A DNA stretch of 35,642 bases from assembly GCA_028694425.1 (NCBI GenBank), contig JAQVKX010000003.1, positions 1 through 35,642 of the forward strand, written 5' to 3'. The notes beneath the pieces are model-generated. The model was not told the origin of the DNA and searched no databases. It was given only the letters and a program-made list of their open reading frames with translations. Source of the stretch: Candidatus Gastranaerophilales bacterium. Lineage in GTDB: Bacteria; Cyanobacteriota; Vampirovibrionia; Gastranaerophilales; Gastranaerophilaceae. Shown here in pieces: positions 12,341 through 34,805 of the stretch; position 1 is the first letter of the stretch, and every line of letters starts with the position of its first letter. A program made the position numbers and the translations under genes.

Positions 12341-13093
12341 TTAAACTTCAGCCAAATAATTAAATATTTCATTGACAGGTGTAATTAATTCTTTTACGTC
12401 AATTTCTTCGTCTAATTCAAGCGTTATTGTCGGAATATTTCGCTCAATTCCGGCATAATTCCCGAAACTCCCCGGAGTAGAATACCCTATATCACTTTCT
12501 ACCGGATAATTTATAATAGCAGAAATATCTTTTGCAATTTTTTCAGCCGGTCCGTCATAATTAACAACCTTATAAGGAGCATGCAGGGTTAAAATTATAT
12601 CGGGCGAAAATTCCGATATAACTTCCATTACAAATTTTGTTTCAATTTCGCTTGCAGAATTTTCGCCCCCGAAATATTCGGATGCAAACGGTTCTCTTAC
12701 CCAGTTTTTTGTCGGAAAATTTCTATTTATATCTACTTCATTTGCGTTTGTACGAGTGTTAAGCTCTAATCCGTCAGGGTTTAAGCAAGGAATAAATAAA
12801 AGACGGTTTTTACCCCTCACCCGAATTTCTGAAACTCGTTCCTCGTTTCGAAATTCTTCCCTCTCCCCCAAGGGGCGAGGGGGTAAATTTTTCAAATCTT
12901 TACTAAAGTCGTTTATGTTATTGTGGGTTGGATGATTTATTTTATCAAGATAATTCTCAATCAAAAATTTACCCTGAGGTTCATCGCCGTGAACTGTTCC
13001 GATTATCAGAATGGTTTTATCGCCATCGTGTTGATTTTCAATTAAAACAATTTCATTATTATTTTGTGTATAATTTTTTTTAATTATTTTCAT
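12341..13093 (-). CDS. MpaA-like zinc carboxypeptidase (M14) carrying a repeat-encoded insert
   Basis: The product is 250 residues. Zinc and catalytic motifs of the M14/MpaA group are present: TVHGDEPQG, PCLNPDGLELNTRTNANEVD with INRNFP, LTLHAP, and ITLELDEE. MpaA-type enzymes trim murein tripeptide between D-Glu and diaminopimelate. Residues about 68-96 (KNLPPRPLGEREEF...RVRGK) are encoded by a dispersed palindromic repeat and interrupt the link between the first beta strand region and RLLFIPCLNPDG. The frame stays open, so the protein is probably still made. AGAGGTATCA precedes the ATG. Confidence 0.82.
   Translation of the reverse strand: MKIIKKNYTQNNNEIVLIENQHDGDKTILIIGTVHGDEPQGKFLIENYLDKINHPTHNNINDFSKDLKNLPPRPLGEREEFRNEERVSEIRVRGKNRLLFIPCLNPDGLELNTRTNANEVDINRNFPTKNWVREPFASEYFGGENSASEIETKFVMEVISEFSPDIILTLHAPYKVVNYDGPAEKIAKDISAIINYPVESDIGYSTPGSFGNYAGIERNIPTITLELDEEIDVKELITPVNEIFNYLAEV
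12806..12893. repeat. CCCCTCACCC stem-loop element, copy A (in frame in the M14 gene)
   Basis: TTTACCCCTCACCC and GGGCGAGGGGGTAAA are outer partial complements. The interior is GAATTTC-T-GAAAC-TCGTTCCTC-GTTTC-GAAATTC, two nested perfect stems. A conserved CCTCTCCCCCAAGGGGCGAGG-type block follows. Copies B and C (26901-26973, 27036-27113) keep the layout with different stem bases; copy D lies in aroB. Confidence 0.85.
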
Positions 13094-18458: not shown

Positions 18459-19541
18459 CTAGAGTTCAAATTCAAAACAATCAACAAAAGACTTGGATGA
18501 CGGTAAAATAAAGTTTATTTTACCGTCTTTAACTTTTTTATCGGCTTTCATTAATTCAATCATTCTTTTCTCGTTAAATTCAGGCATTTTTTTTACCAAA
18601 TTATATTTTTTAATAAGTTCCAGTCCTTCATTTTTATATTCTTCACTTATAAGTCCTTTTTTAAAAGCAAGATTAATTGCAAAAACCATACCAATTGCAA
18701 CAGCTTCTCCATGTGTGTATTTTTTATAATTAGTAATTTTTTCGACTGCATGCCCATATGTATGGCCAAAATTAAGAATTTTCCTCAAGCCTTGTTCTTT
18801 TTCGTCTTTTTCGACAATTGACGCCTTAATTTTAAGTGAAATCTCTATAATTTCTGCAAGAATTTCTTCATTGCGTGCCAATATTTTGTCGGAATTGTTC
18901 ATTAGAAAATCGAAGAAATTAAGATACCCCTCACCCCAAACCTCTCCCGCAAGGAGCGAGGTGGCAGCTGCTTCAATAAAAGCATATTTTACAACCTCTG
19001 CCAAACCTGTCTTAAAATGGCGTTTGTCAAGTGTTTTGAGAAAATTAAGGTTACAAAAAACAGCTTTGGGCTGATAAAAAGCACCGACAAGATTTTTACC
19101 GTAATCGGTATTAATTGCTACCTTGCCGCCAACAGAAGAATCTACACAAGCAAGCAAAGTTGTCGGAATCTGAATAAAATCAATTCCTCTTAAATAAGTA
19201 GCTGCAACAAATCCAGCAATATCACCAACTACACCGCCGCCTATTGCAACAATCGCATCTTTTCTTTCTAATTTATTTTTAAGTGCAAAATCTAAAATCC
19301 TTTTGTAATTTTTAAAATTTTTCCTATGTTCCCCGTCTTTTAAAACAAATTTTATACTGTTTTTTATATTTAATTTTTTCCCGTATAATTTATTAACTTT
19401 TTCATTTATAACAATAAGAATTTTATTTGCATTTGTGCAGGCAAAAACTTTATTTTCAAGATTTTCTATGGGTTCAAAATCTATAAAAACAGGGTAAGAT
19501 TTATTTGGCGGAATTTTAACAAAAAGTTCTTTGTTTAACAT
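18459..19541 (-). CDS. aroB: 3-dehydroquinate synthase with a repeat-encoded insert
   Basis: The product is 360 residues. It performs step 2 of the shikimate pathway (DAHP to dehydroquinate; NAD and metal). Motifs: AIGGGVVGDIAGFVAATYLRG, given as AIGGGVVGDIAG and FVAATYLRG, IPTTLLACVDSSVGGKVAIN, KTGLAEVVKYAFI, NFGHTYGHAVEK and HGEAVAIGM. Residues about 192-206 (ATSLLAGEVWGEGY) are encoded by copy D of a dispersed repeat and are not expected in the family. Its start lies inside aroK (26-base overlap). The fliD terminator hairpin is embedded in the last codons. Confidence 0.94.
   Translation of the reverse strand: MLNKELFVKIPPNKSYPVFIDFEPIENLENKVFACTNANKILIVINEKVNKLYGKKLNIKNSIKFVLKDGEHRKNFKNYKRILDFALKNKLERKDAIVAIGGGVVGDIAGFVAATYLRGIDFIQIPTTLLACVDSSVGGKVAINTDYGKNLVGAFYQPKAVFCNLNFLKTLDKRHFKTGLAEVVKYAFIEAAATSLLAGEVWGEGYLNFFDFLMNNSDKILARNEEILAEIIEISLKIKASIVEKDEKEQGLRKILNFGHTYGHAVEKITNYKKYTHGEAVAIGMVFAINLAFKKGLISEEYKNEGLELIKKYNLVKKMPEFNEKRMIELMKADKKVKDGKINFILPSSKSFVDCFEFEL
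18499..18540 (+). terminator. Rho-independent terminator of fliD inside aroB
   Basis: GACGGTAAAATAAA (18499-18512) and TTTATTTTACCGTC (18514-18527) are perfect complements, followed by TTTAACTTTTTT on the plus strand. It lies 41 bases after the fliD stop and at the same time encodes DGKINFILPS of aroB on the other strand. Confidence 0.75.
18926..18966. repeat. CCCCTCACCC element, copy D (short form, in frame in aroB)
   Basis: TACCCCTCACCCC-AAA-CCTCTCCCGCAAGGAGCGAGG keeps the two conserved blocks of copies A-C but lacks the variable internal stem. It encodes about 14 extra residues of AroB. Confidence 0.75.
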
Positions 19542-22646: not shown

Positions 22647-22670
22647 AATTCTCCCGACAAATACGTTTTA

Positions 22671-22799
22671 CGTCATTGCGAGGAGGGGGTAAATCAAGTG
22701 TTCGGTTGGATTTTGAACAATATGCCCCGACGCGGCAATCCAAAAAAAATTCTTGGATTGCTTCGTCGCTCGGCTACGCCTCACTTCTCGCAATGACAT
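22671..22799. repeat. Dispersed palindromic element, copy R2
   Basis: It starts GTCATTGCGAGGAGGGGG and ends CTTCTCGCAATGACATG. The inner stem is GACGCGGCAATCCAA against TTGGATTGCTTCGTC, slightly decayed. R2 is followed by ATGAAACTTGTTTATTTTTT, closely matching ATGAGACTTGTTTGTTTTTT after copy R3, so the repeat unit may extend beyond the palindrome. Confidence 0.85.
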
Positions 22800-22920
22800 G
22801 AAACTTGTTTATTTTTTCATGTAATTTGTAACCTTTCTTTATAAAAGTATAACAAAACAGCAATTTTTAAAAGTCTTTTGTTTTTAATTAAATATGAAGT
22901 AATTAGTAGTAGGGAAAAAA

Positions 22921-26613: not shown

Positions 26614-26651
26614 AATTTAAGGATTTATTACAACTCAGATAATCAAAGCTC

Positions 26652-26832
26652 ATGTCATTGCGAGGATGGAGCAAAGCGACTGACGAAGCAATCCAAAGAA
26701 AAGGAAAAAGGTAAAGAGGAAAAGAATAAATTAAAATTAAACTTTTCAACTTTTCAACTGTTCGACTTTTCGACTTTTCAATTTTTTTGGATTGCCGCGT
26801 CGCTTGCTTCGCAAGCTCCTCGCAATGACATG
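26652..26832. repeat. Dispersed palindromic element, copy R3 with a nested word repeat
   Basis: It starts GTCATTGCGAGGATGGAGCA and ends AGCTCCTCGCAATGACATG; the inner stem is GACGAAGCAATCCAA / TTGGATTGCCGCGTC. Its centre (about 26700-26785) holds a different repeat, AACTTTTCAACTTTTCAACT and TTCGACTTTTCGACTTTTCA, preceded by AAATTAAAATTAAAC, which also occurs in variant form at 33797-33818. One repeat type seems to have inserted into another. Confidence 0.8.
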
Positions 26833-26900
26833 AGACTTGTTTGTTTTTTGATCGTATCTACTCAGGTCAAATCAATTATGGTTAAAACGTACGCCCAGTG

Positions 26901-26973
26901 TACCCTCGCTCCTTGGGGGAGAGGGGATTTTTCAATGCGAAGAATGAGCATTAGAAAAATTGGGTGAGGGGTT
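26901..26973. repeat. CCCCTCACCC stem-loop element, copy B
   Basis: On the minus strand: CCCCTCACCC, then ATTTTTC-T-AATGC-TCATTCTTC-GCATT-GAAAAAT, then CCCCTCTCCCCCAAGGAGCG. Both inner stems pair perfectly although their bases differ from copies A and C. Confidence 0.85.
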
Positions 26974-27035
26974 AAAAAACATATACCGGTTGCCCCTCCA
27001 TTTTGACTTGACATTTAGTCAACTCAAAACGGAGT

Positions 27036-27113
27036 CCTTCCCTCACCCTGTTTTCTGATTTTCGCGATTTCCCGCTCAAATCGAAAACAGACCTCTCCCC
27101 CAAAGGGCGAGGT
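27036..27113. repeat. CCCCTCACCC stem-loop element, copy C
   Basis: CTTCCCTCACC, then CTGTTTTC-T-GATTT-TCGCGATTTCCCGCTC-AAATC-GAAAACAG, then ACCTCTCCCCCAAAGGGCGA. There are two nested perfect stems plus a GCG/CGC pair in the loop. On the minus strand it reads PRPLGER...SENRVREG, nearly the peptide that copy A adds to the M14 protein. The rest of 26833-27230 holds no gene I can support; about 26870-26890 and 27145-27180 share an inverted ACTCAGGTNAAAT motif. Confidence 0.85.
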
Positions 27114-27230
27114 GAAAAGCGTGTTAAATTCCTGCTTGTGGCTACATTGAATTTCACCTGAGTTGTTACGTTTGATCTGAATTGTTATAAAATTTTATAA
27201 TAAATTTGTTTGAATTATTTTAGCAAGAAG

Positions 27231-33721: not shown

Positions 33722-33885
33722 ATGCTTGGTGCATAAATGCACCCTGCTATAGTGAGAAGTAAAAAAGTGAGAAAAAGTTAGGCGTGAGGCTTAAAGAGGA
33801 ATAAGTTAAAATTAAACTGTTCACCTATTCACCTTATAACCCTATAACCCGGATAATTTTCCATTTTCAACTTTCCATTTTCCAT
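33722..33885. repeat. Repeat block between nitrilase and dacB genes
   Basis: It contains GGTGCATAAATGCACC (33728-33743), matching 4035-4048; AAAGAGGAATAAGTTAAAAT, resembling the core of R3; CTGTTCACCTATTCACCTTA and TAACCCTATAACCC words; and TTCCATTTTCAACTTTCCAT words. The last words run into the nitrilase gene and encode its final residues VKWKMES. Confidence 0.75.
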
Positions 33886-34805
33886 TTTACCTCGTACTTA
33901 TCATGAATATCAAGTAAAACAGTACATTTTTCTCTAAATTTGTACATTTCTTCAAATTTGATTTCTGTACACATAATCCCTTCATCTTCTTGCAATTCGG
34001 AGATAATTTCACCGTTATAATCAATAATCCTTGAATGACCTGAGTTCCACTCATCTCCTTCAAGCAAACCGCATTGGGTTAGTGCAACCATATAACACTG
34101 ATTTTCTATTGCACGGGCTTTAGTAAGTGTATCCCAGTGGCTTGTTCTGGCTTTGGGCCATGCCGCCATATTTATAAGCAAATCAGCTCCTACTCTGCGA
34201 TAAGCTCTGTAAATTTCAGGAAATCTTATGTCATAACAAATACTTAAGCCGATTTTTATGCCGTCAATTTCAACTAAAACTGGGTTCTCACCGCTTTGTA
34301 CATACTTTCCTTCATCGCATCCGTAATATGAAAACAAATGCATTTTTTCATAAACAGCTATTAGTTCGCCTTTTCTGTTTATTACCGGACAAGCGTTATA
34401 AAGTGAACGGTGAGCAGTTACAAAGTGAACCGCCGAAGAATGAGGCGTGTGAACCTGTAGGCGCAGCTCCGAAGGAGCGAGTGAGAGCAGTGAGCAGATA
34501 TCATTCTGTTCACTGTTCACTGTTCCCTGTTCACTGATAAGACTGCCGCCGATTATATTTGTATTGTACTTTTTGGCAATTTCCGATAAAAAGTTAACGG
34601 TTTTACTATTGTCAAAATTTTCCGCCAAATCTTTAAATTCGCTCGGTTTCCACCCAACAGGCCAAAGTTCGGGTAAAATTAAAACATCAACATTGTCTGT
34701 AATGTTTTTATCAATTAAATCCTTAATCTTAGAAAAATTTGTTTTCTTATCAGCAATTTTTGCCGACATTTGCACGGCAAGTATTTTTAATTTTTTTTCT
34801 TCCAT
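33867..34805 (-). CDS. Nitrilase-superfamily amidohydrolase with a 44-aa repeat-encoded insert
   Basis: The product is 312 residues. The catalytic triad is E46 (LILPELWPVGW), K154 (YEKMHLF) and C190 (LSICYDIRFPEIYR). The family is omega-amidase-like (amide C-N hydrolysis). E-to-K spacing is 108 residues against about 70 in omega-amidases. The excess is residues about 90-134 (SEQGTVNSEQND...FVTAHRS), encoded by GTGAACAG-type word repeats. The C-terminal VKWKMES is also repeat-encoded. The gene overlaps the upstream acyltransferase gene by 19 bases. Confidence 0.88.
   Translation of the reverse strand: MEEKKLKILAVQMSAKIADKKTNFSKIKDLIDKNITDNVDVLILPELWPVGWKPSEFKDLAENFDNSKTVNFLSEIAKKYNTNIIGGSLISEQGTVNSEQNDICSLLSLAPSELRLQVHTPHSSAVHFVTAHRSLYNACPVINRKGELIAVYEKMHLFSYYGCDEGKYVQSGENPVLVEIDGIKIGLSICYDIRFPEIYRAYRRVGADLLINMAAWPKARTSHWDTLTKARAIENQCYMVALTQCGLLEGDEWNSGHSRIIDYNGEIISELQEDEGIMCTEIKFEEMYKFREKCTVLLDIHDKYEVKWKMES
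34405..34539. repeat. GTGAACAG word block inserted in frame in the nitrilase gene
   Basis: One side has GTGAACGGTGAGCAG and GTGAGAGCAGTGAGCAG; the other has CTGTTCACTGTTCACTGTTC, so the block can fold on itself. The same words lie at 1620-1690. About 132 bases, a multiple of three, keep the frame. Confidence 0.8.

Follow-up and report, generated by a model that had tools for sequence, protein, structure and literature searches.

The 73-nt hairpin element that interrupts a carboxypeptidase-like gene in this window (the whole analysed stretch of 35 642 nt), here called copy A, is probably, with moderate confidence, a solitary and non-autonomous end of a DUF559 element family. The autonomous form of this family is a nuclease gene enclosed between inverted palindromes, and the Vsr-like nuclease of the PD-(D/E)XK type that it encodes would be the agent that mobilises the element.

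Copy A lies at positions 12809–12881 on the minus strand and scored 99.3 bits against covariance model R1 as a full-length palindromic element. Its first hairpin reads CCCTC.CCC..GGG.GAGGG, its second GAATTTCGAAAC..GTTTCAGAAATTC and its outer arm GGGTGAGGGG. A 20-nt pattern representing the core, with up to three mismatches, occurred four times in the window compared with 0 in 100 shuffles, and a BLAST search with 88 bases of copy A matched the window's own genome in 47 stretches. The host gene (12341–13093, minus strand) encodes a 250-aa M14 zinc carboxypeptidase-like protein (Pfam PF00246, E 1.7e-14), and residues ~71–95 of this protein are copy A read in frame, as the preliminary description had proposed. 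That description also called for an alignment with homologues lacking the segment and for a structural map of the insert. The PRPLGER segment was found in 0 of 109 aligned M14 homologues, most of which have a short linker that joins the helix after GDEPQG directly to the LFIPCLNPDG strand; an ancient origin of the segment within this family is thereby ruled out. In an AlphaFold2 model (mean pLDDT 86.9, most of the core >90), residues ~54–96 have a pLDDT of ~50 and form a predicted disordered loop between helix 40–53 and strand 97–103. One M14 homologue (L037) carries a different repeat peptide, CHSEERSDVRI, at the site of copy A, and another (L132) contains an additional element-like insert (SPSPQPSPQGGEGK) at a different position. 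The M14 loop seems to be an insertion hot spot.

Three further copies were located in the window. Copy C (27035–27113, minus strand, 54.1 bits with R1) is non-genic and reads SPRPLGERSVFDLSGKSRKSENRVREG (PRPLGER..SENRVREG) in an open frame of ~70 codons, which agrees with the earlier reading of this copy. It is inverted relative to a non-genic full-length copy at 26903–26975 (plus strand, 87.0 bits with R1), with a spacing of 59 nt; the latter is probably the copy B of the preliminary description. A short 40-nt copy (18923–18962, minus strand, 35.9 bits with R1) lies in frame inside the gene for the 3-dehydroquinate synthase AroB (18459–19541, minus strand, 360 aa, Pfam PF01761 and PF24621), where it encodes the peptide TSLLAGEVWGEGYL, which has no counterpart in an alignment with the solved AroB structure 5hvn. 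Both non-genic copies are enclosed by a larger repeat at ~26858–27166 with inverted ends ACTCAGGTCAAAT and AATTTCACCTGAGT, whose left flank recurs on contigs C64, C82, C156 and C230; this repeat resembles a MITE that has acquired the element. Repeats of other kinds were also observed in the window. A second in-frame insert, EQGTVNSEQNDICSLLSLAPSELRLQVHTPHSSAVHFVTAHR (34395–34532, minus strand), lies inside a carbon-nitrogen hydrolase gene (33867–34805), is built from other dispersed repeats and has 39 matching places in the genome, while dispersed palindromic repeats of the type GTCATTGCGAGG..GCAATCCAA occur as inverted pairs at 117–269, 22667–22820 and 26639–26852.

The window's own genome is a 2.23-Mb MAG in 256 contigs, a fragmented short-read assembly with breaks at repeats, and its nearest named relatives are Gastranaerophilales/Melainabacteria MAGs. 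Model R1 was built from an alignment of 23 copies, which keep two hairpins and an outer arm with standard pairing in 98.5 % of paired cells. Compensatory changes, with both sides altered, were present in 10 of 20 pairs, and this degree of pairing was equalled by no shuffle or slid register. With R1, 137 copies were detected in the genome at E<=0.001, a number that may be a lower bound as 150 of 1019 candidates were scored. The copies comprise a full form of 71–84 nt, a 40-nt form without the second hairpin, and longer forms. Among 33 adjacent pairs, 29 are plus-minus head-to-head doublets, spaced mostly by 15–19 nt with a range to 23 nt.

Forty-three copies are open throughout and flanked by 90 nt or more of open sequence in both directions. 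When those upstream of gene starts and those belonging to a repeated family of pilin-like genes are set apart, ~28 copies are left, read through within 25 ORFs. The hosts include PurL, UvrA, an RlmCD-like methyltransferase, LipA, HydF, LigA, PanC, a KdtA-like protein, DeoB, PriA, asparaginase II, a TIGR03960 radical SAM protein, AroB, an Orn/Lys/Arg decarboxylase (twice), CoaBC (twice) and a UvrD/RecB-like helicase. In HydF, LigA, CoaBC and PriA the family model matches as separate stretches on either side of the insert, and in comparison with contiguous solved templates there are ~60 extra residues in LipA, ~30 in UvrA and ~16 in AroB. Together with the M14 loop, these genic copies support the earlier suggestion that a dispersed palindromic element is tolerated in frame as extra peptide, in the manner of the Rickettsia elements. 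In CoaBC of the own genome (L297, C237:1717–1862), two in-frame element ends, 66 nt apart, are oriented as in a cassette and resemble one that has lost its interior. The pilin-like genes (..VYAFTLAETLIALAIVGVVA; L149, L276, L277, L278, L146 and L274) follow, in frame, an element that reads KTPLTCFSNIRRP..SRRGRG and may supply their leader peptide.

Copies of the 40-nt form are over-represented in genes (14 of 21 are genic, vs 14 of 116 for the other forms), and all six reading frames are in use among genic copies. Non-genic full-length copies have a mean of 2.64 open frames of six, close to the 2.69 expected under a simple pair-preserving mutation null without indels. The proposals that copies share a conserved reading frame and that the element is selected to stay open are therefore not supported, and a single protective frame under selection is ruled out by the six-frame use together with the agreement of non-genic copies with the null. 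Openness looks instead like a by-product of C/G-rich hairpins and the loss of harmful insertions, and there is no sign of selection for openness beyond this purging.

The putative nuclease-bearing form of the element carries a DUF559 gene. A Pfam search detected two DUF559 genes in the own genome (PF04480, E 1.4e-37), one located inside a 1481-aa helicase ORF that also contains three copies of the element, and the other free-standing. Among 146 genomes of relatives, 34 contained DUF559 at E<=1e-10, with approximately half of the matches in long open frames, and ~29 cassettes were found in frame and unspliced inside host proteins. These hosts include IspE (at two sites), ValRS, IleRS, UvrD-like helicases, MmeI and other restriction-modification proteins, and a further host (L223) is a putative PrmA as judged from its sequence. 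The PriA cassette site lies directly before the helicase ATP-binding motif, while the HydE and HisA cassettes are C-terminal. DUF559-like C-terminal domains of two helicases (L241 and L242) look native and were excluded from the cassettes. The cassette protein is a member of its family by both Pfam (PF04480) and NCBIfam (NF007294) models, and the DUF559 part of one PriA ORF gave a sequence match to a solved endonuclease-like protein, 3hrl. The conserved D, E, D and H positions, which are putative catalytic residues, are kept in 44–45 of 45 sequences, also within host proteins, a pattern that would be expected if activity matters to the element. No match to a splicing-domain family was obtained in any ORF scanned, and only low-complexity linkers of roughly 15–60 residues separate host and nuclease. 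These hairpin-encoded linkers are rich in Pro, Gly and charged residues. In an AlphaFold2 prediction of an M14 protein with a DUF559 insert (L116), the nuclease domain is folded, and the linkers at residues 61–83 and 202–211 appear disordered, both with pLDDT values below 50 (~40).

The solitary element and the cassettes are linked through the cassette ends. The left flank of each of 45 cassettes was aligned with the reverse complement of its right flank and compared with 1607 control positions from the same loci. Terminal inverted repeats scoring above the control 99th percentile were present in 38 of 45 cassettes. The median score was 27, compared with 9 for controls and 9.5 for ends taken from different cassettes, so every cassette has its own matching pair. 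R1, which represents solitary copies of the own genome, matched at least one end in 26 of 43 cassettes and both ends in 18, including cassettes in other genomes; 14 of these 18 have a left minus and a right plus end, and three cassettes (L223, L227 and L185) have the reverse polarity. One cassette (L256) has a full element of the window type at either end (79.6 and 76.8 bits). The cassettes of family f11 are bounded by other palindromes, unmatched by R1. As nuclease controls, GIY-YIG genes were found to be free-standing or UvrC; terminal repeats were above control in 2 of 18, and R1 matched 0 of 20 GIY-YIG loci, which rules out terminal repeats as a general trait of small nucleases. The two GIY-YIG loci with terminal inverted repeats (L323 and L324) had scores of 17 and 21. 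R1 also matched neither of the two Y1 transposase loci (PF01797) of the own genome. Terminal repeats were likewise found beyond the relatives of the own genome, with approximately half of 14 DUF559 loci from plasmid records of other taxa reaching or exceeding the control 99th percentile. A Sinorhizobium locus has a 115-nt terminal repeat, two Deinococcus species have near-perfect 56-nt repeats, and DUF559 ends with terminal repeats also occur in Azospirillum and Pseudanabaena.

Solitary ends and cassettes also share insertion sites. The M14 site of copy A, which holds a solitary end in the own genome, holds ~110 in-frame residues matching DUF559 in some relatives, bordered by peptides such as LPQGED and PPLEGGPKS; the relatives compared belong to other genera, and their M14 homologues are too diverged for the insertion junctions to be placed. 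A UvrD-like helicase site similarly contains a solitary end in the own genome (L181) and a cassette elsewhere (L227). In a phylogenetic tree of DUF559 sequences, the PriA copies from three genera form one branch, as do the HydE copies from two genera and three genomes, while the M14 copies are poorly resolved and need three or more changes. The recurring cassette sites may reflect either inheritance or repeated homing. Across genomes, the hairpin pattern was present in 21 of 34 genomes with DUF559 vs 10 of 112 others (OR 16.5, P=1e-9, phylogeny ignored), and the same co-occurrence was seen within the family, again with phylogeny ignored.

These observations are consistent with a mechanism in which a gene receives a whole cassette or a single end in a reading frame that remains open. 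The C/G-rich hairpins are often open in several frames and would encode flexible peptides rich in Pro, Gly and charged residues. The host fold would be kept, with a solitary end becoming a disordered loop and a full cassette becoming a nuclease domain tethered through a disordered linker on either side; the flexibility of these linkers would let the nuclease occupy a loop without harm to the host fold. Frame-breaking insertions would be lost, so that genic survivors are in frame. For movement, the nuclease may nick the target or the hairpin, followed by copying through repair, and solitary ends may either be mobilised in trans or be left once the interior of a cassette is lost. Several observations, however, stand against this reading. 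The outer arms point inwards in 29 of the 33 own-genome doublets, unlike the commonest cassette layout; three cassettes have ends of reverse polarity; the f11 ends are unmatched; the transposase family Y1_Tnp is also associated with the hairpins; and no DUF559 match passed the cutoff in some genomes with many hairpins, namely G095 (28 hairpins), G082 (19, at 57 % completeness) and G014 (10).

An alternative, which we regard as unlikely, is that the palindromes came first and that DUF559 is a homing-type endonuclease that targets palindromes already present and settled between inverted copies, as a parasite rather than the mobiliser of the repeat. Vsr-fold homing endonucleases are known, and their existence counts in favour of this explanation, as do the location of nucleases between inverted palindromes of both polarities and the grouping of PriA and HydE copies of DUF559 by insertion site. 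However, the much higher score of a cassette's own ends speaks for movement as an intact unit, even if gene conversion could have the same effect. Moreover, only 2 of the 33 adjacent pairs are outward-facing (minus-plus) doublets lacking a nuclease, the arrangement expected of empty sites.

It also appears unlikely that the palindromes are moved in trans by a Y1 (IS200/IS605-type) tyrosine transposase, as in REP/RAYT systems, with DUF559 as a passenger caught between two of them. The head-to-head arrangement of 29 of 33 adjacent pairs, 15–23 nt apart, resembles that of REP dimers (PMC3733652), the own genome has two PF01797 genes, and Y1_Tnp is associated with the hairpins across the 146 genomes (OR 4.9, phylogeny ignored). 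This association is, however, weaker than that of DUF559, and no copy of the element was present at the two PF01797 loci. Only 4 of 137 copies have GTAG close to their outer end, and none has CGTC near the ends. Hairpin-rich genomes without a Y1 match were also found, including G026 (91), G037 (39) and G050 (27). That the hairpins are non-mobile transcription terminators or RNA stability elements, with the few genic copies being annotation or assembly artefacts, is very improbable: many copies are intergenic and the MAG is fragmented at repeats, but in-frame copies split the curated families HydF, LigA, CoaBC and PriA and interrupt conserved folds with solved structures (LipA, UvrA and AroB), and the same pattern, with cassettes, recurs in independent genomes.

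The solitary element has clear parallels among described repeats. In-frame palindromes have been known since 2000 from Rickettsia (Ogata et al. 2000, 2002, as summarised in PMC10969869 and PMC3733652), and copy A on its own is a further example of this kind; the apparent novelty is the nuclease-bearing form. Like the Rickettsia palindromic elements (RPE), the present element is repeated and adds in-frame peptide to functional proteins that are unrelated to one another. RPE have a CGTC tag at one end, and the CGTC-type families to which they belong are described as being without a dedicated transposase (PMC3733652), whereas the element described here has no CGTC tag, uses all six frames with no single conserved peptide and has an identified nuclease cassette with matching ends. 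With the REP, BIME and REPIN repeats associated with RAYT (PMC3733652), it shares short stem-loops arranged mostly as head-to-head doublets and some intragenic copies, for which repair genes, among them uvrA and UvrD/Rep helicases, are frequent hosts. Intragenic REPs likewise occur in repair genes, with recB insertions at approximately the same site in two Xanthomonas species (PMC3733652). It differs from REP/RAYT in being essentially without a GTAG or CGTC tag, in its 73-nt structure of two hairpins and an outer arm, and in its link to DUF559 rather than to the Y1 genes of the own genome. As in TIRtrons and MITEs (PMC3733652, PMC10969869), a gene lies between terminal inverted repeats and non-autonomous repeat copies occur elsewhere, but here a DUF559 nuclease takes the place of a transposase, and the reading frame of a host protein can run through the entire unit.

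No description of DUF559 as a mobile, palindrome-flanked, inverted-repeat-bounded or in-frame inserted unit was found in the open-access literature. Inteins and homing endonuclease genes, including those with the Vsr fold, place a nuclease domain in frame at recurring sites in conserved, essential proteins. DUF559 nucleases are found in such proteins in the same way, but, unlike in inteins, no self-splicing domain was seen and the nuclease stays in the host protein, joined by hairpin-encoded flexible linkers. It is quite possible, though we stop short of calling it probable, that these cassettes represent an undescribed class of selfish element across bacterial phyla, in which a DUF559 gene between translatable palindromes lives unspliced in essential proteins and the solitary ends account for many C/G-rich orphan palindromic repeats of the CCCTCTCCC..GGGAGAGGG type. 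The DUF559 element suggests what may spread such orphan hairpin repeats, and the identification of a nuclease gene with ends like those of solitary repeats makes their spread testable. Dozens of conserved proteins, among them PriA, IspE and aminoacyl-tRNA synthetases, seem to tolerate a whole extra nuclease domain and provide a natural experiment in domain insertion. For annotation, DUF559 'domains' and PRPLGER-like segments in such proteins should be treated as insertions and not as part of host function.
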